Origin: Bolinopsis microptera
Taxonomy: Eukaryota > Ctenophora > Tentaculata > Lobata > Bolinopsidae
Length of the DNA stretch: 64,000 bases
Direction of reading: 5' to 3'
NCBI RefSeq assembly: GCF_026151205.1
Contig: NC_087073.1
Coordinates: 16,263,837-16,327,836 of the forward strand
Positions 4,218-53,979 of this stretch are shown here, in pieces (position 1 is the first letter of the stretch; each line of letters starts with the position of its first letter). The position numbers and the translations under genes were made by a program. Below the pieces are notes generated by a model. It saw nothing but the letters and a program-made list of their open reading frames with translations. It ran no database searches and had not been told where the DNA came from.

Positions 4218-4716
4218 AATGCAAAATCAATCAAATGCTAGAGAAAAGAAGTATGTTTTAAGTTTGGTCTTGAAAGATGTAACTGACTCAGCTGATCTTA
4301 TGTCGTATGGCAAGGAATTAAATACTTTAACTGCACAGTGACTAAAAGCTTTCTCTGTGTTTACATAGTTAGGAGAGGGCGGAAAACTAAGGTAAAAATA
4401 ATCATTATCAAGACGTACATTTTTAAAACTTTGCTGCCTAGGAGATATCAACTCTTTTAAGTAAGGAGGAGCTATATTATTTAAACACTTGTAGGCAAGT
4501 AGGGCAATCTTAAAATCTATTCTAAATCTAACTGGTAGAAAATGAACTTTCTTAAGTAGTGGAGTAGTGTGTGCCTTTCTTCCTCTCCCGAAAATAAATC
4601 TTACAGCAGAATTTTGCACCTTCTGTAAACGACTTAAATCATAAGAGCTCAGTCCAAAATATACGCTATTGCAATAATCAATTCTAGAGAGTACTAGAGC
4701 ATGAACAAGCTGAATC
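4218..4716 (-). pseudogene. LINE C ORF2 3' fragment
   Basis: A different LINE family from A and B. On the minus strand the frame reads from about 4716 to a stop at 4227. Blocks include HALVLSRIDYCNSVYFGLS, LQKVQNSAVRFIFGRGR, LPVRFRIDFKIALLAYKCLN, NNIAPPYLKELI, NSLPYDIRSAESVTSFK and LKTYFF. This 'LSRIDYCN ... LQ.VQN.A.R ... LPV..RI.FK...L.YK.L' order is the C-terminal part of many L2/Rex-like LINE ORF2 proteins. The 5' part is absent: at about 4717 the sequence runs into a T run. The clade assignment is from memory of the family pattern and is tentative. Confidence 0.8.
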
Positions 4717-6090: not shown

Positions 6091-6679
6091 TATGTATGAG
6101 TCTTAAAACCCTAACCAACATTACTTTAGAGCGGAAACTGAAGCGGTAAACGACACCAATTTACCAGAATAAACATACTGACCCGCTCTTATGTGATCAA
6201 TGAAGTTTAGCCGACCCTCCTAATAATTACTAAGTAACTGGTAAAAGGACACATTAGGATCAATATTTTTCGGTGCCTCATCAAATATAATTATAATTAC
6301 CTGAAAAAAATATCATTAAGCAGGGTCCCTCATACTTTTTAAGCTACACCTTCTGGAAATAAGACCCAAAATTAACCGTGTTTTAATCAACAACCACCCC
6401 CCGACAATATGGAGAAAATAATGCAAATGAGTACATAATGGATGCGTTTTGATGATTTCTATCGCTTTTTACCTAGTCACATCTTAACATCTACCGCTTG
6501 TACGTCTAGTGGATATAACCTACTGAGTATCAATATAACCTTGTCCTAACAAGGTAAGGTTAGGAAGGTTGTAAAGAATGTCGTATCGAAAAATGTCTTC
6601 ACATCTAAAATATCACCAATCGCTACAACCTACGCTATGCTTTTTATAATGGTAAATATAATGATATGAAGGATCATAT

Positions 6680-6708: not shown

Positions 6709-7500
6709 AAGTAAGTAAAGCTAAAGATTATGACATAACATCATCAACAAAGTGCCTACAAAAAATCATTGCACAAAAAAAAAGAACTACTTTAAAATAA
6801 ATATATTTTTCCATCAACATAATATTATCAAATTAAATTTTATTAATTAATAAAAATCTAAAACATTAATCTATAAAATAATGTAAATTCATTAATAACT
6901 ACCCTGTGGAATAAAGATTTATAAACGCTTCCTTTGGCCACAAAAGGAAGAAACCAAAGATATTCATTATTGTGTCTCCTTGTGCATTTAAATAACTGGG
7001 TCCTTCAAATTTTCCCCTAAAACATCCATTCGAAACAATTCCAAAAAAAAAAATCATTTACACTGTTTTTAAAGAAATCATTTCTTTTCTAAATCCTTCC
7101 AATCTAACTTTAAAGCTTAAAAACTGTCGAGCAGTTCATGACAACCTGAGGGAGTATGTTCCAGTAGAATGACTTCGCCTCCGGAAGAAAGAAGACTGGA
7201 GATTCTTAACTTTATTACACTCATATAACACCTATTGGGTTGAAACTAGATAGACCAGATCTGCTCTTCTGAACAAACCCGATACCATATTCAATCAAAC
7301 CCCCTAGTTAACATTAAAAGCTTCAATAAGGTCCCCATGAATTCGCCGCTCGCCAGCGTTGTCAAAATTGAGGATATCCATCTGCATACTGTATGGAAGA
7401 GTACCCACCTCATCAATAAGACGGGTAAACGCCTCTGGGACGCTCTCGCCAAGCTCCAAAACAGGTCCCCCCAACTTCCTGAGCCGCACTGATATCCACA
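6705..7500 (-). mobile_element. LINE A copy in array unit 1
   Basis: Same CR1-like family as 2014-4110, retaining only the C-terminal ORF2 part and the 3' UTR. The tail is (AAGT)n on the plus strand. TAGGT lies at 6700-6704 and again at 7501-7505, a 5-bp target-site duplication. The 5' truncation falls just after the block encoding QLWNP. The frame is broken repeatedly by single-base indels, so only short pieces translate. Confidence 0.85.
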
Positions 7501-7505
7501 TAGGT

Positions 7506-8233
7506 GTGTAGATATGTTTAGGTATAAAATAGGGAAAACGTGAGTTTTAGGAAATATTGACATGTGTATGAAACGATAATTGGTGTGATAGTACATTACA
7601 AACGTATTTCACAATTCCCGCTCCCATTATCGCACAAATTCATATACACTCCAGTAAGAAACTCTCAAGATCTTATGTTCATCACGACCACACCGACAAA
7701 CCCACACTGCACCATACCAAACTGTATCATATGTCCACTCATCACAACAAATCACGACTGCAAACCAATGTGTCCATATACAAAGTTACGTGTAAATTAT
7801 GTCAGAGCTATATATAGGGGAAACGAGTAGAACAGCACACGATAGATTTTTCAGAGCATCGAAGACCAGACACAGGCCTTTAACCTAGTCCTATAAAAGG
7901 CGTTGGCTGCTCATTTATTCATAGTTTTCACGATAACATGAACCAGATATTTTCCTTCGATATTTTAGAAATTAACTTATATAGCACCATTAAACGTAAA
8001 GTGAACAGAAAGCTACTACATTAATTTAATTAAACCTATATCAATAACAAAGACGAAGTGCAGAGCCTTAAGGGAATTTCTTTTACAACTATTCAAAGAC
8101 CAAATTTAAACAAATAAGCAACACGAACCTGCATGTTCAGTAGATAATTATGAACTTTGGACAGTAGTGATAAAATCGTGTGTAACAAAATCACTATTTT
8201 TTCAATGTAATGTACAATACCATTTTGGACTGA
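7506..8233 (+). pseudogene. Penelope-like element 3' end (Cys cluster + GIY-YIG endonuclease), unit 1
   Basis: Reading the five array copies against each other gives one open frame. A linker with SKKLSEILCSSRPHDKPHC leads to a Cys cluster (NCIICPL, then DCKPKC, then CKLC). The GIY-YIG core follows as QELYIGETSRTAHDRFSEHR, then a HYSEFH block and a C-terminal Cys/His-rich end. This is the domain order of endonuclease-containing Penelope-like retroelements, where GIY-YIG nicks DNA at the target. The RT part is missing: the fragment begins at the LINE A insertion. Single-base indels break the frame in every copy. The stop is at about 8231-8233. Confidence 0.75.
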
Positions 8234-8326
8234 ACCCTGTATTCAGTGTGGTGGTAATTTTAATTTAGCATTTATAACTAGTATAGAACATTTATTATAT
8301 ACTAAAAATTTATAACAATTTAAAGC

Positions 8327-8350
8327 CTGCAGATGGCGTTGACGCCGAAA
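8327..8350 (+). ncRNA. Hammerhead-like core, unit 1
   Basis: CTGCAGA, then the GGCGT/ACGCC helix, then GAAA: the catalytic strands and helix II of a hammerhead (CTGANGA-stem-GAAA, with one deviation here, CTGC for CTGA). It lies about 95 bp after the Penelope-like stop codon. Penelope-like elements are known to carry hammerheads. Helices I and III are not convincing, so activity is unproven. Confidence 0.35.
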
Positions 8351-8627
8351 ATTGCCCTTTACTCCTAACATTCCTTGTTTTTCAAACTTTCCTTGGTCCT
8401 CTGTCCAACCGATAATAACTCAGAAATCATTAAATCAATAATATTCGTAACTAATTATATTCCGAGAGACCACATATTGAATCGTAATCATAGATTTTGA
8501 ATCCAGTGAATTCTAAGCTACAATTAATCATTGCAAGTCGTAACTAATTAGCAATCCAAGATACCACCATACTATTCATATGATCTGGTAACCATCAACT
8601 ATTCACCTGTTGCTTGATCACATGGGA

Positions 8628-10375
8628 TACTGTTTTTTATACTGTAATATGATCTGGTAGACCAGTGGTCCCCCGCGGACCGTGGTCCGCGGACCCGAGA
8701 TCGGCTATCTCGATACTGCAATGGTACCAAGGCAGAGTGTAGGGATACAAGATTGGCTCCAGGAAAAAGAAACCTAAGCTTAATAGAACCGAACGGAAAC
8801 AACAGGAAGTGACTGAAGACACTAAACACACTCCAACAGAACTGAATGGGACCAAGCAGAGTGTAGGAAACAAAGATTTGTGCTCCAGTAAAAAGAAACC
8901 AAGCTTAATAAGAACCGAACGAGAAACTACGGAAGTGATGAAAACTCTAAAAACGACACAATAACAGAATCTGAATGGGAACAAAAGCAAGAGTGTAGGG
9001 AAATCCAAAGATTGTGTCTCCAAGAAAAATGAACCAAGCTTAATAGACCCGAACGGAAACTAACAGAAGGACTGAAACTCTAAAACGAAACTCTATCGTA
9101 ACTACAGGAAAGGAACTACAACACCTTAACTACACTCTATCCTAACTAACAGGAACAACACAGAACTAATGGGACCAATAACCGAGTGTAGGAATCAAAG
9201 AAATGTGCTCCAGAAAAAGAAACCAAGCTTAATAGAACCGAACGGAAAACAACAGGAAGTGACTGAAACTCTTAACGACACTCTAACAGAACAGACTGGG
9301 AACCAAAGCATAGTGTTATTGCATCAAAAGAATTGTTCTCCAGAAAAAGAAAACCAGCTTAATAGAACCGAACAGAAACAACAGGAAGAGACTGAAAACT
9401 CTAAACGACACACAAACAGAAAACTGAAATGGGACCAAGGCAAGAGTGGAAGGGAATCAAAGATTATGTGCCTCCAGAAAAAATAAACCAAGCTTAATTA
9501 GAACCGACACAGAAACTACAGAAAAGTAACTGAAACTCTAAACGACACACTAACAGAAAACAGAATGGGACCAAGGCGAGTGTAGGAAATCAAGGATTGT
9601 GCTTCAGGAAAAAAGAACCCAAGCTTAACCGAACCGAAACAGAAACCACGAAAGTAAACTGAAACTCTAACGATAAAACTCTATCGAACTACAGGAAAGG
9701 ACAATCACCTTAACGACACTCTATCCGAAACTAACGGAACTAACGACAGAACTAAAAGGGACAAAGCCCAAGGTAGGGAATCAAAGATAGTGCTCCAGAA
9801 AAGAAACCAAGCTTAATAGAAACCGAAACGGAAACTACAGGAAGTGATGAAACTCTAACGACACTTTAACAGAACTGAAATGGGACCAAAGCAAGTAAGG
9901 AATCAAAGATTGTGTAACCAGTAAAAAGAAACCAAAGCTTAACAGAACCGAACAGAAACTACATGAAAGTGACTGAAAACTCTTAAAATGACACTTTTTT
10001 GGAGTAGGCTAGAAGTCTGGAAACTTTTAGTAGATGGACTTTCTGTATCACTCCCGCCTTACCTGAATAAGCCACTTTAACACGTCAGCTCTACAAATCA
10101 ACTGACCAACTGGGTTTATGATGGGTAAATCTTTCTCTTACTTTTTAATTATCCAGGAAATGTATAATTGTTTGTATAATTGCATAATTGTTTTCATATT
10201 AATCATTTATTTAATCAACGTTACCAGATAAAGCTCATACCACTGATTTGACCTGACATACTTAAACATTTCAGAGGATTTCATTGGGTGAACGTTACAA
10301 GTGGGACTGGTGAAGCATTTTCAAACAACACCAAACGAGGAAACAAGAGGCATACGAAAATTGCGAGGATACTGA
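8628..10375 (+). CDS. Two-exon gene for a 42-residue-repeat coiled-coil protein, unit 1 (frames broken by indels)
   Basis: Exon A is about 8628-10124 and exon B about 10277-10375. In the five-copy consensus, exon A starts after a TTGATTCAG acceptor, reads a lead-in with YDLVDSG and IGYLDTANG, then about ten tandem repeats of 126 bp. Each 42-residue repeat contains GTKAECRESKIVLQEKETKL followed by NRTERKLQEVTETLNDTLTE. Leu or Cys recurs at every seventh residue, giving six exact heptads. Two shorter variant repeats also keep the heptad phase. A C-terminal part follows (WSRLEVWKQLVDGRF, then PPYLNKLFTRQLYNQL) up to a G|GTAAAT donor. Exon B joins in frame as GFHWVNVTVGLVKHFKQHHE and stops at TGA. 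A 5' exon with the start codon was not found. Function unknown; likely an elongated coiled coil. Confidence 0.55.
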
Positions 10376-13259: not shown

Positions 13260-15027
13260 GGGATACTGTTTATTATACATGTAAATATGATCTGGTAGAA
13301 CATGGTCCGCGACTCGTGGTCCCGGACCGGACGGGCATCTCGATACTGCCAATGGGCACCAAGGCAATGTAGGAATCAAAAGATTGTGCTCCAAGGTAAA
13401 AAGAAACAAGCTTAATAGAACCGAACGGAAAAACTACAGGAAGTGGACTTGAAACCTCTAAACGACACCTAAACAAACAGAATGGGAACCAAGTCAGAGT
13501 GTAGGAAAATCAAAGATTGTCTCCAGAAAAAGAAACCAAGCTTAATAAACAGAACGGAACACAGAAGTGACTGAAACCTAAAACGACACTTTAACAGAAC
13601 TGAATGACAAAACAAGAGTGTAGGGAAACAAAGATTGTGCTCCAAGAAGAAATGAACCAAGCTTACTAAGAACCGAACGGAAACTACAGTATGTGACTGC
13701 AACTCTAAAAACGAAACTCTAAACGGAAACACAGGAAAGGACTACAACTCCTTACGAACACCTACCGAACCTCCTTTTTAAAACAGGAACTAGACACAGA
13801 ACTAAATGGGACCAAAAACAGAGTGAGGGAATCAAAGATTGTGCTCCAGTAAAAAGAAACCAAGCTATAATAGAAAACCGAAACGGAACTACAGGAAATT
13901 GACTTGAAACTCTTAACGACACTCTAAACAGAACTGAATGGGACCAAAACAGAGGTGTAGGGAATCAAAGAATTGTGCCTCCAGGAAAAAGAAACCAAGC
14001 TTAATAGAACCGAAGACAGAAACTAACAGGAAGTGACTGAAAACTCAAAACGACACTCTAACAGAACTGAAATTTACCAAGGCAAAGTGTAGAATCAAAG
14101 ATTGTGCTCCCAGAAAAAAGATAAACCAAGCCTTAATAGGAAACCGAACAGAAACAACAGTATGTAACTGAAACTCTAAACGCACTCTAACAATAACTGA
14201 AATGGGACCAAGGCAGAGTGTAGGGAATCAAGGAATGTGCTCCAGGAAAAAGAAAACAAAAGCTTAAACAGAATCCGAACAGAAACTACAGAAAGAAACT
14301 GAACTCTAAACGAAAACTCTATCGGAACTAACAGAATGGACTACAATGGAACTCTTAACGACACTCCCTATCGAACCCCTAACAGGAACTAACACAGAAC
14401 TAAATTGACCAAAGCAAGAAGTGTTATGGAATCAAGATTGTGCTCCAGGAAAAAAGAAACCAGCATAATATAACCGAACGGAAACCTACAGGAAGTTGAC
14501 TGAAACTCTTTTAACGACACTTTATCAGAAACTGAATGGGGACCAAAGCAGAGTATAGGGAATCAAAGATTTTGTTTCCAGGAAAAAGAACCAAGCTTAC
14601 CAGAACCGAACAGAATCTACAGGAAGTGACTGAAATCTTAATGAGCACTTTTTTTGGGAGGAGGCTAGAAGTCTGGAAACAGTTAGTAGATGGACGTTTT
14701 CTGTTCAAAGTCCCCCTTACCTGAATAAGCTCTTTACACGGCAGCTCTACAATCAACTGACGCAACTGTTTATGAAGGTAAATCTTTCCTTACTTTTTAA
14801 ATTTTCCAGGAAATGTATAATTGTTTGTATAATGCATAAATTGTTTCATATTATCATTATTTAACAACGTGAACCAGATAAAGCTCAATACCACTGTATG
14901 AACCTGACAAACATAAATACATTTCAGAGGATTTCATTGGGTGAACGTTACAGTGGTGCAGGTGAAGCAAAACAAACAACACCAACACGAGGACAAGAGA
15001 CCACGAAAAATAGCGAGGAGGACTTGA
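13260..15027 (+). CDS. Coiled-coil repeat gene, unit 2 (frames broken by indels)
   Basis: Exon A is about 13260-14777 and exon B about 14930-15027. Here the acceptor TTGATTCAG|G is intact at 13251-13259, and the donor reads AAG|GTAAAT. About ten 126 bp repeats lie at 13340-14650, including two shorter in-phase variants. The exon B acceptor TTTCAGAG|GATTTC is clean. The TGA at 15025-15027 matches the consensus stop. Confidence 0.5.
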
Positions 15028-17941: not shown

Positions 17942-19707
17942 GATACTAGGTTATTATACAGTAAAATATCTGGTAGACAGTGTCCGCGGACCGTGGTCCC
18001 GGACCGGATCGGGCTATCTCGATAACTGCCAATGGACCAAGGCGAGGTGTTAGTGAATGGAAAGATTGAGCCCAGTGACAAAAGACACCAAGGACTTAAT
18101 AGGAACCGAACGGACACTACAGTAAGTGAACTGAAACTCTAAACGACACTCTAACAGAAACGAATACGAGGATGGACCAAGGCAGGAGTGTAGGAATCAA
18201 GGATTGTGACCAGGAAAAAAAGAAACCAACTTAATAGAACCGAACGGAAACTACAGGAAGTGTCTGAAACACTAAACGACACTTTAACCAGAAACAGAAT
18301 GGGACAAAAGCAGAGAGTAAGGGAAATCAAAAGATTGATGCGCCAAGAAAAAAATTAACCAAAGCTTAATAAACCTGAACGGAAACTACAGGAAGTGACT
18401 GAAACTCTAAACGAAACTCAATCGGAACTACTGGAAAGGAACACAACTACTTAAACGAACACTCTAATCCCCGAACTAACAGAACTAACACAGAATAAAT
18501 GGACCAAAACAGAGTTGTAGGACTCAAAGGATTGTGCACCAGGAAAAAAGAAACCAAGCTTAAAGAATCGAAACGGAACTAACAGGAAGTGACTGGAACT
18601 CTAAACGACACCACTAACAGAACTGAATGGAACCAAATCAGAGTGTAGGGAATTCAAAGATTGTGTCTCCATGAAAAGAAACCACGTCTAAATAGAACCT
18701 AAACAGAAACAACAGGATGTGACTTGAAACTCTAAAACGACACTCTAACCAAACCTGATTGACCCAGGCAGAGTGTAGGGAATCAAAGATTGTGCTCCAT
18801 AAAAAAGAAACCAAGCTTAATAGAACCGAACAGAAACTAACAGAAGTAACTGAAACTCTAAACGACAACTCTAACAGAACTGAATGGGGCAAGCAGAGTG
18901 TAGGGAATCAAGGATGTGCTCCATGAAAAAGAAACCAAGCTTACAGAACCGTAACCGAAACTACAGAAAGTAACTGAAACCTAAAACGAAACTCATACGG
19001 AACCTACAGGAAAGGACTAACCAACTCATAACGACACTTTCTAAACCGAACAAACGAGGAACTAACACAGAACAAATGGGACCAAAGCAGAGATGTAGGG
19101 AATCAAGATTGTGGCTCCAGGAAAAAAGAAACCAAGCTTAAATAGAACCGAAACGAAACTACGGAAGTGACTGAAACTCTTAACTGGGAACACTTAACAG
19201 AACTGAATGGGACCAAAGCAGAGTATTTGGAACAAAATAGTGGGTTCCAGGCAAAAGTAAACCAAGCTTAACAGAACCGAACAGAAACTACAGTAAGTGA
19301 CAGAAACCTTAAGGACTCTTTTTTGGAGGATGCTAGAAGTCTGGAAACAGTTAGTATAAGGGACGTTTCTGTTTCACCATCCCCCTTACCTGAATAAGCT
19401 CTTTAACACCGGCAGCTCTAACATCAACCTGACCCAACCGGGTAATTGAAAGGGTAAATCTTTCTTACTTTTTTATAAATTTATCCAGGAAATGTAATAA
19501 TTGGTTGTATAAAATTGCATAATGTTTCATATTATCATATTTAACAACGTGACCAGATAAACTCATAACCACTGTTGACCTGACAAACCTAATAACATTT
19601 TCAGAGGAATTACATTGGGGTGAACGTATATCAGAGGGACTGGTGAAGCATTCAAAACAACACCAAGAGGAACAAGAGGCCCACGTAAAATTGCGAGGGA
19701 GGACTGA
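17942..19707 (+). CDS. Coiled-coil repeat gene, unit 3 (frames broken by indels)
   Basis: Exon A is about 17942-19453 and exon B about 19607-19707. The acceptor reads TGATTCAG|G. The repeat domain spans 18030-19320 with the same internal order of standard and shorter repeats as in units 1 and 2, so whole units were copied rather than repeats being shuffled. The donor G|GTAAAT and the terminal GGACTGA are preserved. Confidence 0.5.
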
Positions 19708-20694
19708 ACAACAACTACTGTTATTACTATTGAAGTTTTAATTAAGTGCAGGTACAAGCTGTAACCTTTGTCATGGGCCCTGTAATTCGTCTGTAATCAA
19801 CTTGTAATCCAACATATAGCTGTAATAATAACAATTACTAAAAAACTGGTATCAGCTGTTTAACTAATAACCTAACAACTAATATTAAATTCTAATGTGA
19901 CTGTAAATTAAAACTTACTGACTTAATATGACTAAACTTTATTAATGATAATTACGATTTACATAAAAATGACTAAAATCTTTGGAATTTAAGCTGTGTT
20001 CAAACTGTAACATTAACATTTGAAACGAAATCAACACCTTATTATAAAAAACTCCAACTAATCATCTGACCCAGCTGGTTCATTATGACTTTATGAGGTC
20101 TTAACCCACCAACATTACTTTTAATAGCGGAACTGAAGCGGTACTACAACAATTGTAACCATAAAAAACAACTGACCGCTCTTTGATCTTGAAGTTTAGC
20201 GACCCGTCCCCTAATAATTACTAAGTAACTGGTAATAGGACGACTGTTAGATCCAATATTTTTTTCGTGCCTCAATCAAATATAATTATAATACCTGATA
20301 AAAAATATCAGTAGCAAAGGGTCCTTCAAAATTAAACCTGTTTTTTTTTTAAGCTAACACCTCTGGAAAAAGTCCAAAATATAACGTGTTTATCAACAAC
20401 CACGACATACGGAAATAATGCTAAGATGAGATACAAAATGGATGCTTTTTGATGATTTCTATCGCTTTAACTAGGGACACTTTACATCTACCGCTTGTAC
20501 TCTAGTGGATATTACCTACTGAGTATCAATATACTGTCCTACTATGGTAGGTTAGGAGGTTGTAAAGATGTACGTAATAGAAAATGTCCTTCCTTCTAAA
20601 ATACAACCATCGCTACACCAAAGCTATGGCATTTTAATAGGTAAATATAATGCCTATGAGGATCATATACTTAACCTACTATCCATAAGTAGGT

Positions 20695-21485
20695 AAGTAA
20701 GTAAGTAAGTAAAGATTATGAAAATAACAAACATCACAAGTGTCTACAAAATATCATTGCACTAAATAAAAAAATAATTTAAATAAAATAAATTTATTAC
20801 CATCAACATTAATAATTTATCAAATTAAATTTTAATTAAATAATAAAATCTAATACATTATCAATAAAAATTAATTCATTATAAATTTCCCAGTGGAATA
20901 AGATTTATGAAACGCTTCATTTGCCTCAAAAGGATGAAACAAAAGATATTCATTATGAACTCCTTATTGCTTAAATAACTGTGCCTTCAATTTTCCCTAA
21001 ACTTCATTCGAAACAATTCCAAAAATCAAAATATATACACTGTTTTTTTTTAGAAATCATTCTTTCTTAAATCCTTCCAATCTAACTTAAAAGCTTAAAA
21101 CTGTCGGAGCAGTTCTTGACATCTGGAAGGGCGTTTGTTCCAGTAAGGAATGACTCGCTCCGGGAAGAAAAGAAGACTTGGGAGAATCTTAACTTTAGTT
21201 AACACTCTTATACACCTATTGTTGAAAACTAGAATTAAGACCAAATCAGCTCAATCCTGAACAAACCGATCCTATTCAGTCAAACCATAGTTACTTTAAA
21301 AAGCTTTCAATTAGGTCCCCATGTCTACGCCGCTCTGCCAGCGTTGTTCCAAATTGAGGATATCCATTCTGCAGCTGTATGGAATAGTCCCACCTCATCA
21401 ATAAGACGGGGTAAACCGCCTCTGGAACCCATCCACCAGCTCCAAAACGTCCCCCAACTTCCATGAGCCGCAACGGAATCCACAA
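20695..21485 (-). mobile_element. LINE A copy in array unit 4
   Basis: Flanked by TAGGT at 20690-20694 and 21486-21490, both exact. Same 5' truncation as the other array copies. Confidence 0.85.
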
Positions 21486-21490
21486 TAGGT

Positions 21491-22596: not shown

Positions 22597-24402
22597 GGAT
22601 ACAGTATTCATACATAAAATGATCTGGTAGACAGTGGTCCTCGGACCGTGGTCGCGGACCCGTGATCGGCTTATCTCGATACTGCCAATGGGACCAGGCA
22701 GAGTGGTAGGGAAACAAAGATTGTGCTCCAGGAAAAAGAAACCAAGCTTAATAGAACCGAACGGAAACTACAGGGAATTGATGAAACCATAAACCGTCAA
22801 CTTCTAAACAAACTGAAATGGGACCAAGGCAAGAGTTTAGGAAATCAAAAGATTGGTTGCTTCCAGGAAAAAGACACCAAGCTTAATAGAACCGAAACGG
22901 AAACTAACAGGAAGTGACTGTAACTCTAAACGACAACTTTAACAGAACTGAATGGGACAAAATCAGAGTGAGTAAGGAAATCAAAGATTGTGCTCCAAGA
23001 AAAAATGAACCAAGCTTAATAAAGAAACCAACGGAAACAACAGAGAATGAACCTGAAACTCTAAACGAAACTCTATCGAACTACAGGAAAGGAACTAACA
23101 ACTTCTTAAACGACACTCTATCCGAACTAACAGGGGAAAAAAAAAAAAACTAACACAGAAACTAAATGGGACCAAAAAACTGAGTGTAGGGGAATCAAAG
23201 ATTGTGGCTCCAGGAAAAAGAAACCAAGTTAATAGAACCGAACGGAAACTACAGGAAGTGACTGAAACTCTTAACGACACTCTAACAGAACTGAATGGGA
23301 CCAAAGCAGAGTGGTAGGAATCAAAGATTGTGCTCCCATGAAAAAGAAACCAAGCTTAATAAACCGAACAGAAACTAACAGGAAGTGACTGAAAACCCCT
23401 AAACGACACTCTACCAAGAACTGAGATGGTGACCAGAGGCAGAGTTAGGGATCAAAGATTGTGGCTCCAAAAAAAGAAACCACGCTTAAATAGAACCGAA
23501 CAGAAACCTCAAAATAACTGAAACACTAAACGACACTCTAACAGAACTGAAATGGACCAAGGCAGAGTGTAGGGAATCAAGGATTTGTGCTCCAGGTAAA
23601 AGAATCCAAGCTAACCAGACCCGAACAGAAATACAGAAAGTAACTGAAACACTAAACAAACTCTACGGACGACAGGAAAGGACTACAAAATTCTTAACGA
23701 CACTACTATCCGAACTAACATGAACTAACACAGAAACTAAATGGGACCAAAGTCAGAGTGTAAGGAATTCAAAGATTGTTGCTCCAGGAAAAAGAAACCA
23801 GCTTAAATAAGAAACCGAACGGAAAACTACAGGAAGTACTGAAACACTTAACGACACTTAAACAGAAAACTGAATGGGGACCAAATGCAGAGTAATAGGG
23901 AATCAAGATTGTGTTTTCCCCCAGGAAAAAGAAACCAAGCCTATAACAAACCGAACAGAAAACAAAACAGGAAGTGACTGAAACTCTTAATGACACTATT
24001 TGGAGTAGGCTAGAAAAAAAAAAATCTGGAAACCTGATTTAGTAGGGTGGGACGTTCTGTTTTTCACTCCCCCTTACCTGAAATAAGCTCTTTTACACGG
24101 CAGCGTCTACATTCAAACTGAACCAACTGGGTTATGATGGTAAATCTTTCATACTTTTTTTTAAATTTTCCAGAAATGTAAATTGTTTGTATAATTGCCA
24201 TAATTGTTTCATATTATCATTATATAACAATACGTGACCAATAAAGCTCATACCACTGTTGGACCTGACAAACTATAACATTTCAGAGTGATTTCATTGG
24301 GTTGAACGTCTACAGTGGGACTGTTGTAGCGATTTCAAACAACACCACCGAGGGAAGAAAAAAAAAAGGCTAAGGACCACGAAAAATTGCGAGGAGGACT
24401 GA
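22597..24402 (+). CDS. Coiled-coil repeat gene, unit 4 (frames broken by indels)
   Basis: Exon A is about 22597-24139 and exon B about 24290-24402. One of the longer uninterrupted stretches of the repeat lies at 22723-22917, with QEKETKLNRTERKL and a second KETKLNRTE motif one repeat later, confirming frame and period directly. Homopolymer insertions (A runs at 23138-23149 and 24015-24023, T4 elsewhere) break the rest. The exon B acceptor TTTCAGAG is followed by one extra T. Confidence 0.5.
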
Positions 24403-25389
24403 AACAACAACTACTGTTATCTACTATTGAACTTATAATTAAGTGAACGGTAAACTGTAAACCTTGTCATTGGGGCCCCTGTTAATCGTCTGTAATCATC
24501 TGTAATCAACATTTAGCTGTAATATAAACATTACTAATAATATGTTTATCATCTTTTAACTAATAACCTATCAACTAATATTATTCTATGTGACTGTATT
24601 AAACCCTGTACTGACTTAATATTAAACGAAAACATTTATTATGAAAATTAACGATTTACATATAATACTAAAATCTTTGATTTTAAGCTGTGTTTTCAAC
24701 TGTTAACATTAACATTTGACGAAATCAACCACTTATTATAAAAACTCCCAACTAACATCTGTCAGCTGTTTCTTTTATTGACTTTATTAGGTCTTAAAAC
24801 CCTACCAACATTACCATTTTAAGAGCGAACTGAAAGCGGTAACGACAACAATTTTGTAGCCAGATAAACAACTGACCGCCTTTTGAATCTTGAAGATAGC
24901 GACCCTCCTAATAATAACTAATAACTGGTAAAAAGGAACCTTTAGGATCAATATTTTCGTGCCTCATCAAATATATTATAATAACCATGAATAAAAAATA
25001 TCAGTAGCAGTGTCTCTTCATACTTTTAAGCTACACCTCTGGAATAAGTCCAAAATTAACGTGGTTAATCAACAACCCACACGACAATTAGGAGAAATAA
25101 GCGAAGATGAGTAACAAATATGATTCTTTTTGATGATTCTATCGCTTTTACTAGGTACACTCTTACATCCTACCGCTTGATACGTTAGTGGATATTACCT
25201 ACTGAAGTATCAATATACAGTCTAACATGGTAGTTAGGAGGTGTACAAGATGAACGTATAGAAAATGTCCTTTTATTTTCCTTCTAAAATATCAAACCAA
25301 ATCGCTACAAACCTACGCGGCTATGCATTTTTAAAGGTAAATATAATGCTATGAGGCTCATATAACTTACCTACTATTCATTAGTAGGT

Positions 25390-27317: not shown

Positions 27318-29078
27318 GGATACAGGTATTAACCAGTAATATGAACTGGTAGACAGTGGTCCGCTGACCGAGGGTCCCGCGGCCCGTGATCGAGCTAATC
27401 TCGATACTGCCAAATGGGACCAAGCAGAGTGAAGGGAAACAAAGATTGGGTGGCGTCCGGAAAAAAGAAACCAAGCTTAATAAACCGAACGAGAAACACA
27501 GGAGAATAGACGAAAACTCTAAACGAACACTCTAACAGAACCAGAATTGGGACCCAATGCAGAGTGAGGAAATCAAAGATTGTGCTCAGGAAAAAGAAAC
27601 CAAGCTGTAATAGAACCGAACGGAACTACAGGAAAGGTGACTGAAACCTAAACGACACCTTTTAAAACAGAACAGAATGGGAACAAAAGCTGAGTGGTAA
27701 GGAAATCAAAGATGTGCTCCAATAAAAATGAACCAAGCTTAATAGAACCGAACGGAAAACTACAGTGAATTACTGAAACCTCTAAACGAAACTCAACGGA
27801 ACTACAGGAAAGGACTAACAACTCTTAAACGACACTCTTTCCTAACTAACAGGAACTAACACAGAACAAAATGGGACCAAAACAGAGTGTAGGGAATCAA
27901 AGATGTGCTCCAGGAAAAGAAACCAAGCCATAATAGAACAGAACGGAAACTACATGAAGTGACTGAAACTCTTAAACTAACACTCAAAAACCAAAACCCC
28001 AAAGAACTGAATGGACCAAAGCAAGTGTAAGTAATCAAGGATTGTGCCACCCAGGAAAAAGAAACCCAATGCTTAATAGAGACCGAACCAAAACTACAGG
28101 AAGAGACTGAAACTCTAAACGACACTCCTAACAGAACTGAATGGGACCAAGGCAGAGTGTAGGGAATCAAAGATTGTGCCTCCCAGAAAAAGAAACCAAG
28201 CTTATTAAACCGAAACAGAAACTACAGAAAAGTAACCGAAACTCTAAACGACACTCTAACAGAACGAATGTGACCAAGCAGAGTTGTAGGGAATCAAGGA
28301 TTGTGCTCCAGAATAAAGAAACCAAGCTTAACAGAACCGAACGAAACAACAGAAAGTTCTGTAAACTCTAAACGAAACTCTATCGAACTACGGAAAGGAC
28401 AAACAACTCTTAAACTACACTCTACCGAACTAACAGGAACTAACAACAGAACTAAATGGGACCAAAGCTGAGTGTAGGTTGAAACAGAAGATTGTGCTCC
28501 AAGGAAAAAGAAACCAAGCTTAATAGAACCGACGAAACTACAGGAAGTGACGAAACTCTTAAAGACACTTTAACAGAACTGAATGGGAACCAAGCAGAGT
28601 ATAGGGAATCAAAGATTGAGTTCCAGAAAAAGAAACCAACATAACAAACCGAACAGAAACTAACAGTAAGAGTTGGACTGTGAAACTCTTAATGACACTT
28701 ATTGGAGAGGCTAGAAGTCCTGGAAATGTTTATGTAGATTTGACTTCTGATCAACTCCCCCTTACCTGAAATAAGCTCATTTACACGGCAGCTCTACAAT
28801 CACTGACCAACTGGGTTATGATGGGTAAATCTTTACGTACTTTTTTAAATTTTCCAGGAAATTTATAATTGGTTAGTATAATTGCATAATGTATCAATAT
28901 TATCATTAATTAATCAACGTGAACCAGATAAAGCTCATACCACTGATGACCTGACAAACTTATAACAAATTCAGAATGATTTCCATTTGGGTTGAAACGT
29001 TTCAAGTGGGGACTGGTGAAAGCTTTCAACCAACACCACGAGAAACAAGAGGACCACGAAAATTGCGAGGAGGACTGA
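27318..29078 (+). CDS. Coiled-coil repeat gene, unit 5 (frames broken by indels)
   Basis: Exon A is about 27318-28824 and exon B about 28978-29078. The acceptor TTGATTCAG|G and donor ATGG|GTAAAT are intact. The repeat domain covers 27410-28690. The exon B acceptor is altered (TCAGAATGATTT). The stop context GAGGAGGACTGA matches the other units. Confidence 0.5.
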
Positions 29079-30050: not shown

Positions 30051-30545
30051 TAAGTAAGTAAGTAAGTAAATGATTATGACATAACATCAAACACAAGTGT
30101 CTACAAAATATCATGCCTAAATAAAAATAATAATTTAAATAAATATATTTTTCCATCAACAATAATAATTTAATCAAATTAAAATTTCATACTTATAAAA
30201 TCTAAATAACATTATCTATAAAAAATTATTCATTAATACTCCCAGTGGAATATAAGATTATGGAACGCTTCTTTGCCCACAAAAGGATGAAACCAAAATA
30301 TTCATTAAATGTCCTCCTTATTGCTTAAATAACTGGGTCCTCAATTTACCCTAAATCATCATTCGCAAAACATTTCCAAAAATAAAAATCAATTACACTG
30401 TTTTTTAGAAATCATTCTTTCTTAAATCCTTCCATCAAACTTTAAAGCTTAAAAACAGTCGAGCAGTATCTTGACACGAAGGTGAGTTTGTTCCATAAGG
30501 ATGACCTCGCTCCGAAAAAAAGAAGACTGGAGATTTCTTAACTTT
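30051..30545 (-). mobile_element. LINE A copy at the right end of the array, further truncated
   Basis: Begins with the same tail and palindrome but ends at about 30545, some 300 bp short of the usual truncation point. It runs straight into the NPLOC4 exon, and the AGAGTGTAA words at the join fit both sequences (microhomology). The TAGGT duplication is not found on the right, so this is a rearrangement breakpoint, not the original insertion end. Confidence 0.8.
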
Positions 30546-30551
30546 AGTTTA

Positions 30552-30799
30552 CACTCTTCAACTCTAGATTTGATGAACAACATGTCACCATGATTCAAAC
30601 GCAAAGTTTTCAATGTTTGGCGAGTTTTGGAGTTCCCAAGCGGGTTCTTATCTTTCAAGTCACGATAAACAAAAAGTTGGTCCAATGGAACATCACACTT
30701 TTCACTCAACAATTTTGCCAAGTCAGAAAAGGGCACTGCGGGATCGATGGATATTCTTTCCGTACCATTTGAAGACCTCACTCGAATGAGGATCGACAT
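30552..30799 (-). CDS. NPLOC4: NPLOC4/NPL4 homologue, exon 1 (N-terminal ubiquitin-like domain), partial
   Basis: On the minus strand the ATG at 30797-30799 opens MSILIRVRSSNGTERI, followed by a beta-grasp-like sequence ending LKTLRLNHGDMLFI. The NHGDMLF end and the short basic start match the N-terminal ubiquitin-like domain of NPL4, the cofactor that with UFD1 brings ubiquitinated substrates to the p97/CDC48 unfoldase. The family protein is about 600 residues; only about 82 are here. An upstream in-frame ATG at 30862 exists, but MSILIRV aligns with the usual NPL4 start. The frame runs into LINE A at about 30545. A GTAAAC donor candidate starts at 30552, so the rest may lie beyond an intron. 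No further NPL4 exon is recognisable to the left in this window. Confidence 0.7.
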
Positions 30800-30938
30800 T
30801 TTAAACCTTTCAACTGAGGAAATAATTACTGTTAATAATCTACTAAATTTCAATTTGAACATAAAAACTTTTCAACATGATTATAAATAATGAAAGATGC
30901 AAATTAGATGAAAATAGGAAATTAGGTAAAAACCAAAA

Positions 30939-50237: not shown

Positions 50238-53200
50238 ATAGATGATGATTAGATTAGATTAGATTAAGAATAATGACATAAACATCATCACTAGTTTTAA
50301 ACATTCTTTCTGATTTCCTCATTATCAGAACTGTGAACATTTCACAGCCTTCGTCATTATAAAACAAACAAATTCTATAACTAACATAATTGTCATAATT
50401 TATTTACATATAAAAAAGTTTAAAAAGTTAAAAACCGTTAATTTAAAAAATAAATAAATAAAAACAAATTCATGAGATATTTATTCCCTTTCTCTTGGCA
50501 ACACACGGATTTTTATATAAATATTGGACTTGTTGCTTCTTCTTTTCGATATAATTTACACCCTCTATTTTTGCTAAAACTATATTTGACACTTCCCAAA
50601 AGTTGCCTGTGTCTACTAAATTATTAGTCTTTTTAAATTCTTCTAGATTAATTTTAAAATCAATAACAGACACTGAATTTCTAACAAAAGATGGCAATTT
50701 ATTCCAAAAGCTGATAACACGCTCTGATAAAAAATTATTAGACAAGGTTTTAATATTTCTATCAATATTGTTAGATTTAGTGCTAACAATTTTATCTCCC
50801 GATCTACTTAAATTGAAAATATCTTTTCCATACTCAACCAATCCATTTACAATTTTGTAGGCTTCAATCAAATCTCCTCTAACCCGTCTCTCTGCGAGTG
50901 TTGTAATCTGTAAGGCATCCAACCTTTCACTGTAAGGAAGTGTTCCAATATCATCAATAAGGCGTGTGAACCTTCTCTGGACATTTTCCAGTTCAATGAT
51001 AGTAGCCCAATTCCCATGGCAGGCAGGTGGAGACCACAACTGAGCACAATACTCCAAGTGGGGTCTTATTATAGTTTTATAAACATTTCTCATTACATTA
51101 ATTTCTCTTATAATGAGATTCCTTGTAACCCATGCAATCATACTGTTTGCTTTACTAATTATACAACTTTTAATATGTTTCGACCATTTCAAATCTGAAG
51201 AAGTTAAAACTCCAAGATCTTTCTCTGCTTCAATACATTCAAGTGTAACACCACTAAATACATATTCTTGAAGGGGATTTTCATTAAATGGAACATGCAT
51301 TATTTTGCATTTGCTAGGATTAAACTTTAACAGCCACACATTTTGTCAGTTTTGCAAGCTTTCTAACATATTGAAAGTGCTTTCAGTGTCATTGGCATCC
51401 ATAATAACTTTAAGATCATCTGCAAACAGTTTTGATATACCATTAATACAATCAGGCAAGTCATTGATAAAAATGACAAACAATAAAGGACCTAAAACAG
51501 ACCCTTGTGGGACGCCTGATAAAACATCACGAAGGTAGGAATATGCTCCACCAACAAATGTCTTAAATCTTCTTCCAGATAAAAAGTCTTTCACAATATC
51601 TAAAGTGTTACCACTTATACCCAAATTTCTCATTTTTGTAAGTAGTCTATGATGTGGAACACTATCAAATGCTTTACAAAAATCTAAGTAAAACACATCT
51701 ACGGGTGCACCATCTTCTAATAGTTCGATGATACATTCTACACTCTCTAATAGATTAGATAAACAAGATTTACCTTCTACAAATCCATGCTGGTTTGGAT
51801 TTATCTTCTTACTAACAAAACTCATAATATGCCTCCTTACTAATTTTTCATATAATTTACATAAAATGCATGTAAGTGACACTGGCCTGTAATTTAGGGC
51901 ATCTTTCCGACTACCCTTTTTATAAAGAGATGTAACATTTGCTGTCTTCCACTGTTCTGGAATTTTCCCACTTGAAGCACATGTTTGAAATAATTTAGTC
52001 ACAGCAGAAACAAAACTTGAATTATGTTCAAGTTCTTTTAATAATTTAGGATGAATGCCATCTGGCCCTTTACTTTTACTAATATTAATTCTTTTCAGTT
52101 CTCTGCCAACATCATCCATTGTTATCTCAATATTTTCAATGTGTAACTCATCCGCAATAAAATAACATTCTCTGTTCAAAGGTCCATCTGGTTCTTTGAC
52201 AAAAACTGAAGCAAAAGCATCAGCCAATACTTCGGCAGTTTCAAAATTACTTTTGGTCAAAGATCCGTCCGGTTTTTCCAGGGATGATACACAACTTTTT
52301 AACACTCTTTTCCCTCTTAAATATGCATAAAATGGCTTTGTATTATATTTCATACACTGTGTAATTTTTCTTTCATAATTAACTTTACACTTAAATGAAT
52401 TACTATCAAACTGTCCTTGTTGGTTCAGTGCAACATTAAGATTTTCAGAAGAAGGATTATTATCAAAAATATACCAACATTTATCTGTCTTTTTCCTGCA
52501 TCTTTTTAAGGATGAATTTGCCCAAGGCTCACATTTAAAGTTCTTTTCCGTCGGAACTATATCAGATACTAAGTTAAGCTTTGAGTGTAACTCACTCCAC
52601 ATATCTTCAGAAGTTAAAGTACCCTCACTAAAAGACCAGTCAATTTCAGCTGATCTGTGTAACAATTCTTTGCCAGAGACTTTTCCCCATAAATTTCTAG
52701 GCTCCTTTGCAGCCTCATCATCTTGCTTACTGTTACTAAGACTTAGATTTAATTCTACATTAAAACAAACATGATCGCTCTTCCCCAAGGGGGAGACAAT
52801 CATTACTTCATTGACCATAGCTTCGTTTGTAGAGAGAACCTGATCTAGTGTACTCTCTTGAAGTTTACCGCTGACAACTCTACGTCTGGTAACTTCATCT
52901 GTGATATACCAAACCAAGCCATTGTCTTGTACACATTCCATAAAATTCTTTTCTATAATTAAACCCTTATTACTTGTTCCTAAAGGAGCATTAACAGTTC
53001 CACTAAGCCAAGATACATTTGGTAAATTTAAATCTCCAACTAGGATTGATTCAACATTAAAAACAGCTAGTTTTGCAATCATTTTGGTCATCGCATTGTT
53101 CTGCGCTTTAGAAAGAGACATTGATCTATAAATACATGCAATATTTACCCTACCAATGTTGCTATCGAATTCAACAGCAATCGAATCAGTGACCCTAAAC

Positions 53201-53979
53201 CAATCTATGACAACTGGGTTCAAAGAGTCTTTAATATAAATAATACAGCCTCCACCACTACTAACAGAACTTTCTCCTACTTCTTCATTAACTGTAAAAT
53301 CTCTATCTTTTCTAAATATTTTGAAACCAGGTATGCTAATTTCAGCATCAATAATTTCATTGTTAAAATGAGTTTCATTTATGCAAACAATGTCAGACTG
53401 GTACAGCGAAACAGCATTTCTCAATTCACAAAACTTATTATATAAACTATTACTGTTACTATAAAACAATTTAAGGTTTAGGCATCCTATAGCTTTGCTT
53501 TCTCTGCAAGTCGCTTTCTCCGTTCCTGTCTCACAAAAAATTGGACGTCTCTGTCAGCTCTGTTCAGATCCTGATTGATCCAATAAACTTCTTTCTTCGT
53601 TTTCTCAGAATCCACTTCTATCTTCCAACCTTTCCCATAGTTACTCCAATACAATGCAGCCTCTTTTGATTTTAGTTTTACAATCAGCGGTCTAGGTTGA
53701 TGTTCTCTGCTTTCACCAGATTCAGTTAATTTACCTGCCCGAAAACAGGACACAATCACGTCTTCTTCCATGCCACAAATTTCATGTAAAAACTTGAGAT
53801 CATTGCTTTGAGATCTGTTCTCTTTGATAGCCGTTTCGGGAACGTGTCTAATGATCACATTACATTCTCTTTTGATCCGTTGGATCTTGTCAGCATCAAT
53901 CTGTTGGACTGTTGCCTTCACTAATTGAGTTGGTGGCTTGTCACTAATAGTTGCCTGGAGGTCAACCTTCGCTGCATCA
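50238..53979 (-). mobile_element. LINE B (CR1-like), 3.74 kb, nested in LINE A
   Basis: Minus strand. TTAAAG at 50232-50237 and 53980-53985 is the target-site duplication within LINE A. The 3' tail is GATTA repeats on the plus strand (50245-50265, TAATC on the element strand). 5'-truncated within ORF1, then a complete-length ORF2. LINE B is the youngest-looking element here. Confidence 0.9.
50470..53469 (-). pseudogene. LINE B ORF2: APE-type endonuclease + reverse transcriptase, one nonsense codon
   Basis: Minus strand, 1000 codons including the terminal stop, and a single in-frame TGA at 51346-51348 (codon 708). APE endonuclease at about residues 1-240: NSNSLYNKF at 5-13, catalytic E32 in INETHFN, GDLNLPNVSW, and SDHVCF near 230. 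RT at about 455-700: SKSKGPDGIHPKLL, LNYRPVSLTC, HGFVEGKSC, FYLDFCKAFDSVPHHRLL, SGVPQGSVLGP at 651-661, catalytic FADD at 682-685. After the stop, VWLLKFNPSKC and the CR1-type C-terminal block (RRVRGDLIEAYKI, ISFWNKLP). The TGA lies where related proteins often have Trp (W...WLLxFNxxKC), so TGG to TGA is likely. ORF2 nicks the target and reverse-transcribes the element. Confidence 0.9.

Follow-up and report, generated by a model that had tools for sequence, protein, structure and literature searches.

The tandem array in a 64,000-nt stretch of the Bolinopsis microptera genome (hereafter the window) probably consists of headless pseudogene copies that carry raw-read noise, and the intact paralogs of these copies probably encode glycosylated heptad stalks that display pentraxin/LamG heads. 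The repeated unit contains the coil, tail and second exon of such a gene, and the intact genes join the same stalk in frame to a signal peptide and a pentraxin/LamG head.

Layout of the array and its 42-residue repeat

Self-BLAST diagonals delimit about five tandem units of about 4.65 kb each at 6106–30558 on the forward strand, with unit starts at 7745, 12378, 17062, 21720 and 26423 (spacing 4633–4703); the errors in these units have the profile of long reads that were never polished. Consensus-to-unit mapping gives an identical layout in all five units, in which the coil part of exon 1 and the C-terminal tail are followed by exon 2, all on the forward strand. Unit 1 is 5′-truncated, with coil and tail at 8720–10124, a GT donor directly afterwards at 10125, and exon 2 at 10275–10375, ending in the TGA that the intact gene uses. 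The corresponding coil-and-tail and exon 2 segments are 13351–14777 and 14928–15027 in unit 2, 18031–19453 and 19605–19707 in unit 3, 22687–24139 and 24287–24403 in unit 4, and 27413–28824 and 28976–29078 in unit 5. The first-pass annotation had placed a repeat protein at 8628–10124; coil and tail account for 8720–10124, but 8628–8719 is not coil.

The repeat of about 126 bp corresponds to 42 codons with the consensus ECRESKIVLQEKETKLNRTERKLQEVTETLNDTLTELNGTKA. This consensus was built from 16 units (five from the window, eight from C10, two from C8 and one from C6, where C denotes contigs of the same genome) and comprises about nine repeats. As the first-pass annotation had described, the repeat is six heptads long and carries a ladder of one Cys (position 2) and five Leu (positions 9, 16, 23, 30 and 37) at each seventh residue. 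Its further claim that variant repeats keep frame and heptad phase also holds in the consensus, where the two variants are 63 residues long (42 + 21) and both properties are kept because the addition is three extra heptads. Each 42-mer contains three N-glycosylation sequons (LNRT, LNDT and LNGT), and in the register that we chose its d positions are rather polar (S, K, T, V, T, T). The 42-mer has zero matches in the PDB at E 0.01. Pfam matches to the coil alone (49 families at E ≤ 1) were set aside as composition-driven; among the 25 of these families listed, only Ino80_Iec3 is over its cut-off (29.7 versus 27 bits).

Upstream of the coil, the unit includes a piece of a dispersed element (7627–8442, forward strand) that has at least 48 further genomic matches with 84–89% identity to the noisy window copy. 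Among the matches listed, several form inverted pairs by eye, spanning about 1.6–12.7 kb, an arrangement that suggests a DNA element with recent mobility or a fold-back family. A probable non-LTR retrotransposon 3′ fragment lies within the unit on the reverse strand at 6720–7500 (ends approximate) and by eye is the same as 2018–2803; self-BLAST pairs 1951–2803 with 20632–21489 in a later unit. The LINE label is an assignment by eye, since the frame at 2194–2922 is without a Pfam match. At the array end, an open frame at 30449–30871 on the reverse strand matches UN_NPL4, the NPL4 ubiquitin-like domain (E 5.7e-14), and is probably where polished sequence resumes. Further on, long reverse-strand frames of a non-LTR retrotransposon occupy 50470–53553, with endonuclease and reverse transcriptase matches within 51346–53553. 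Rfam gives zero matches at gathering score across the whole window. Genome-wide, a COX1 search gives zero matches and a homeodomain search 111; zf-C4 also gives zero, but its prokaryotic controls stayed silent, so this negative does not establish absence. The homeodomain and zf-C4 outcomes agree with a ctenophore.

The array probably carries raw-read noise

Two array stretches offset by one unit show 8.7% mismatches and 10.5% gaps when aligned. The dispersed element provides a control for the origin of these differences: four genomic copies are identical to one another over 785 bp, and against one clean copy the five array copies have 1.9–3.9% substitutions, 6.1–8.1% insertions and 1.8–2.6% deletions. 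The 16 units differ from their own consensus by means of 2.7% substitutions, 4.8% insertions and 2.6% deletions, yet from the tail to the 3′ flank 424 of 429 positions of that consensus agree with the clean gene L014, and there are zero indels. A noisy array stretch of 9,183 bp is 99.92% identical on C8 and C10; the loci that share it (L007–L012, at C10:7793001–7833000 and C8:17094001–17114000) look as though the same read had been used to fill two gaps. The published assembly of B. microptera was made from PacBio CLR reads with wtdbg2, TGS-Gapcloser and pilon (PMC10232365). We infer a raw-read fill of an assembly gap as the origin of the array, so that its copy number and placement are uncertain, and attribute most of the frameshifts seen in one unit only to sequencing noise.

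True decay of old pseudogene arrays would account for the stops within most array matches and for the fact that C8 and C10 share the 9,183 bp including the same differences, but we regard it as highly improbable as the source of the indels. The same error profile appears in an element that is identical across its four polished copies, insertions on average outnumber both deletions and substitutions, and the consensus agrees with a clean gene without an indel. An old decayed array was rejected on the strength of the dispersed-element control. Sequencing noise, the preferred source, carries a caution for other studies: where the gaps of a long-read assembly have been filled, repeat arrays can hold raw-read errors, and one noisy sequence can stand at two genomic places.

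Intact paralogs join the stalk to a lectin-like head

A search with the 42-mer finds frames without stops at C1:188 kb, C1:606 kb and C2:19.219 Mb. The gene at C2:19.219 Mb encodes 471 residues in two exons separated by a 145-base intron, and its product comprises, in order, a signal peptide (identified by eye), a Laminin_G_3 head, heptad repeats and a conserved tail (LETVSRWDVLFTPPYLNKLF...) that has no match in Pfam at E 0.01. The same splice-site motifs are found in L016. The two C1 loci (L001 at 188 kb on the reverse strand and L002 at 606 kb on the forward strand) lie near the contig start in opposite orientation; both are free of stops and carry the 42-residue repeat, and the two are almost identical.

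These intact relatives, which carry the stalk in frame with the head, bear out the earlier proposal that the sequence is by descent a coding heptad repeat and not a plain satellite. The open frame itself, which had been put forward as coding evidence, carries little weight, because one antisense frame of the repeat is likewise free of stops and, after base shuffling, 3174 of 5000 126-mers show one or more open frames among the six. That openness is what a non-coding satellite with a frame open by chance might show, yet such a reading is extremely improbable given the in-frame fusion to a signal peptide and a LamG/pentraxin head in intact genes, the low stalk dN/dS in one pair (below), and the shared register of sequons and heptads across paralogs. 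A plain non-coding satellite is contradicted by the intact genes.

For L004 and L002, NG86 dN/dS is 1.15 in the head, 0.23 in the stalk and 0.15 in the tail. Across six pairs the head ranges from 0.15 to 1.15 and the stalk from 0.14 to 0.48, values to be read with the limits that alignment of the repetitive stalk is approximate and that the L004/L017 pair and the stalk of L027/L029 are near saturation. The head value exceeds that of the stalk in four of the six pairs and falls below it in two (L018/L031 and L004/L017), so a fast-evolving head is not general.

A large family with heptad-multiple stalks

Searching the genome with the head gives at least 151 matches at E ≤ 0.001, and searching with PF00354 gives at least 144, all over the cut-off; these are places rather than genes, and some genes give two. 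The 42-residue unit, for which the first-pass annotation knew no named family, is real, but 42 is one of several heptad-multiple lengths among these genes. It is part of a large family whose members have a pentraxin/LamG head, and of which the array holds 5′-truncated copies in a 4.65-kb macrosatellite; the window alone does not reveal this membership.

A first sample of 18 genes (L002, L004 and L017–L032) was drawn from the top head and coil hits and is therefore biased towards coils. A hydrophobic heptad ladder above chance, a mark of coiled-coil proteins, was found in 13 of the 18 (0 of 1000 shuffles in each), and in 12 of these 13 the strongest repeat lag is divisible by seven (7, 21, 28, 35, 42, 49 or 56). 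In the 13 stalks the Asn of 147 of the 174 sequons lies one residue after the ladder, a count whose members are not independent because the paralogs are related (L018/L031, L021/L026 and L022/L023 closely so). Two of the 13 depart from this pattern: L023 has a lag of 67 and two of seven sequons in register, and L030 has a single sequon, which is out of register. The L030 stalk is a near-perfect seven-residue repeat (QDLATTK-like), an extreme of the same stalk type. Outside the 13, L022 gives 12 of 1000 with a lag of 71; L019 gives 154 of 1000 on a coil-only frame, its head frame being unparsed, also with a lag of 71; L024 gives 424 of 1000 and by eye has cysteine-rich modules in place of the coil; L025 gives 1000 of 1000 over a 60-residue acidic stretch with no ladder; and L028 is too short, its frame stopping after the head.

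A second sample of 14 matches was hand-picked at steps down the head-match list. By eye, seven of these have a coil (L037, L041, L042, L044, L045, L047 and L048) and seven are without a clear one: in L039, L043 and L049 an acidic linker leads into a tail of the same kind, in L038 a short stretch resembles a coil, and L040, L046 and L050 have no coil in the frame read. When the stalks were cut by hand, all seven coil genes gave 0 of 1000 shuffles with a best lag divisible by seven, and 28 of their 36 sequons, again from related genes, are in register; the automatic cut gave 0 of 1000 for L037, 4 of 1000 for L044 (with the tail kept in) and 196 of 1000 for L040. Stalk repeats are mostly whole-heptad multiples, and sequons mostly lie one residue past the ladder.

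Separately, two pentraxin-domain matches occur within one 582-codon frame at C13:9667643–9668812, and similar pairs of matches are present at C13:7515491, C1:146127 and C5:10530540; the pairs point to a second pentraxin architecture.

Most of the aligned heads match the pentraxin family

We aligned 14 of the 18 first-sample heads, leaving out L019 (unparsed) and L023, L026 and L031 (close relatives of included heads). Against PDB profiles the alignment matches neuronal pentraxin-1 best (E 5.5e-19), with neuronal pentraxin-2 and PTX3 also at the top. In Pfam, Laminin_G_3 (PF13385) matches all 14 heads, and Pentaxin (PF00354) matches 11 of the 14 (best E 3.1e-26), so that by a curated domain model these 11 heads have a pentraxin domain. 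Laminin_G_3 is a broad fold class and is uninformative on the stalk or tail. At E 0.001 the head of L004, which has the 42-residue repeat, matches only Laminin_G_3 (E 1.1e-12); its close relative L002 apart, the other heads are 33–52% identical to it. The pentraxin signature H-x-C-x-[ST]-W-x-[ST] fits by eye in L004, L027 and L029 and does not fit in L002, L018 and L026. Pentraxins also have an acidic loop at the calcium site, and a loop like that of neuronal pentraxin-1 is by eye kept in L018 and L020 and not in L004. Two other matches were set aside: a clostridial neurotoxin lectin-fold region (PDB profile, best E 1.5e-5, below the pentraxins), taken as a shared ConA-like fold without implication for function, and NCBIfam TafC in 7 of the 14 heads, which in one member scores 25.5 against a cut-off of 410.

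Long pentraxins (PTX3 and the neuronal pentraxins), which supply the best PDB matches, likewise join a pentraxin-type head to a coiled-coil region. In vertebrate long pentraxins, however, the coil is N-terminal and the pentraxin domain C-terminal, whereas here the head comes first and the coil after it in each coil-bearing gene read; because of this reversed order we do not file the family among the long pentraxins. The family also differs from them in its tandem heptad-repeat stalk, its in-register sequons and its at least 144–151 genomic matches. By analogy, it may nevertheless work like a long pentraxin. FREPs, CREPs and other stalked invertebrate lectins are expanded families that combine a recognition head with a helical stalk; they resemble the present family in how they would work, a likeness drawn from their description and not from homology, and their heads differ. 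Polydom/SVEP1 is a secreted protein with a pentraxin domain together with vWFA, Sushi and EGF modules (PMC12549020); it resembles the family here as a protein predicted to be secreted with a pentraxin domain but has no heptad stalk, and one paralog here (L024) by eye carries cysteine-rich modules where the coil would be.

The array units are probably truncated pseudogene copies

In the window array we found no start, no signal peptide or head, and no unbroken frame. The head was not found in the window by a protein search, nor as DNA in the window and the fetched stretches of C10, C8 and C6; the same head DNA query matches L015 and L016 at 87–88%. In repeat 3 one site reads exactly TGA in 12 of the 16 units, from four arrays, and GAA in none, where other repeats have GAA; the remaining four units (w3, c10_4, c10_5 and c10_7) have noisy variants that include a T. 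Within the window this site is the TGA at 9030–9032 in unit 1 and lies near 13653, 18355 (as TTAA), 23006 and 27729 in units 2 to 5. The majority consensus has a further stop just upstream of the coil, where TGATC is present in 9 of the 16 units.

Open frames in successive consensus versions were 108, 150 and 132 codons in the first pass, 108 and 309 after voting, and 112 and 345 after score refinement by three edits, one of which gained little; the last two lie in different frames with the break in repeat 3. At this level of noise the TGA is the firm part and the frame change near repeat 3 the uncertain one. The first-pass annotation had proposed a consensus as the check on its frame, and many persisting stops or frameshifts as its refutation; in ours most frameshifts do vanish, and the refutation is partial, with the TGA and the frame change persisting. 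The array as assembled does not encode the protein, given the TGA, the two consensus frames and the missing head. The array units are most likely 5′-truncated pseudogene copies, because the signal peptide and head are missing and the stop is shared, although an expressed headless product or unusual splicing may exist.

The 345 codons that are open after the broken spot are expected of a young copy but also of a gene. Together with the conserved splice donor, acceptor and exon 2, this frame, which in the refined consensus extends from repeat 3 as far as the end of the exon, could mean a functional multigene locus in which each 4.65-kb unit makes a headless coiled-coil protein through an unrecognised upstream exon. 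We consider this unlikely in view of the shared TGA, the stop upstream of the coil, the lack of a Met in the 42-residue consensus and the failure to find the head in the window or, as DNA, in the fetched stretches.

Proposed mechanism and function

On the pseudogene reading, the 4.65-kb macrosatellite would have amplified the 3′ half of a pentraxin/LamG-stalk gene, comprising stalk, tail, exon 2 and 3′ flank. The products of the intact paralogs are predicted from their signal peptides to be secreted. Their stalks may pair in parallel through a face of Leu at a and Thr or Val at d, possibly with interchain disulfides through Cys at ladder positions, and N-glycans at the residue next to the ladder would stud the rod. 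The polar d positions count against tight pairing, and a stable coiled coil is not assured by the sequence. Stalk association would display the heads in clusters, which could bind external ligands, whether for recognition or for mucus or prey adhesion. Duplication of whole heptads may be the main way in which stalk length evolves.

A literature search of partial coverage found no ctenophore pentraxin-stalk family, which does not establish its absence from print: neither PMC11797021 nor PMC6278862 has ‘laminin’ or ‘pentraxin’ in its main text, and that of PMC11184263 has zero occurrences of ‘laminin’. Since PMC6278862 deals with ctenophore tentacle and colloblast candidates, an adhesive role finds no direct support in its main text. 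That the family is instead structural, contributing to a mesoglea or mucus matrix, is a real possibility, though not the one we favour. It would suit the long, sequon-rich repeat rods and the comparison of L004 with L002, in which stalk and tail are constrained and the head is not; against it stand the many heads as divergent as the identities to L004 indicate. Because head dN/dS exceeds that of the stalk in some pairs and not in others, the rates do not decide between a structural and a recognition role.

Pursuing recognition or adhesion further, we suggest tentatively that ctenophores have a family of more than 100 members built as reversed long pentraxins, with lectin heads, some of them fast-evolving, on disulfide-linked rods whose N-glycans are written in register and whose length is tuned by whole heptads. 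Such a family could form a diversified recognition or prey-adhesion repertoire, with the arrays as headless reservoirs that exchange stalk repeats with live genes. That sequons keep register with the heptads in many stalks with different repeats suggests a rule by which glycosylated helical rods are designed. A large repertoire of pentraxin-like proteins with signal peptides bears on the origin of animal recognition and adhesion molecules, provided that ctenophores are the sister group of other animals.
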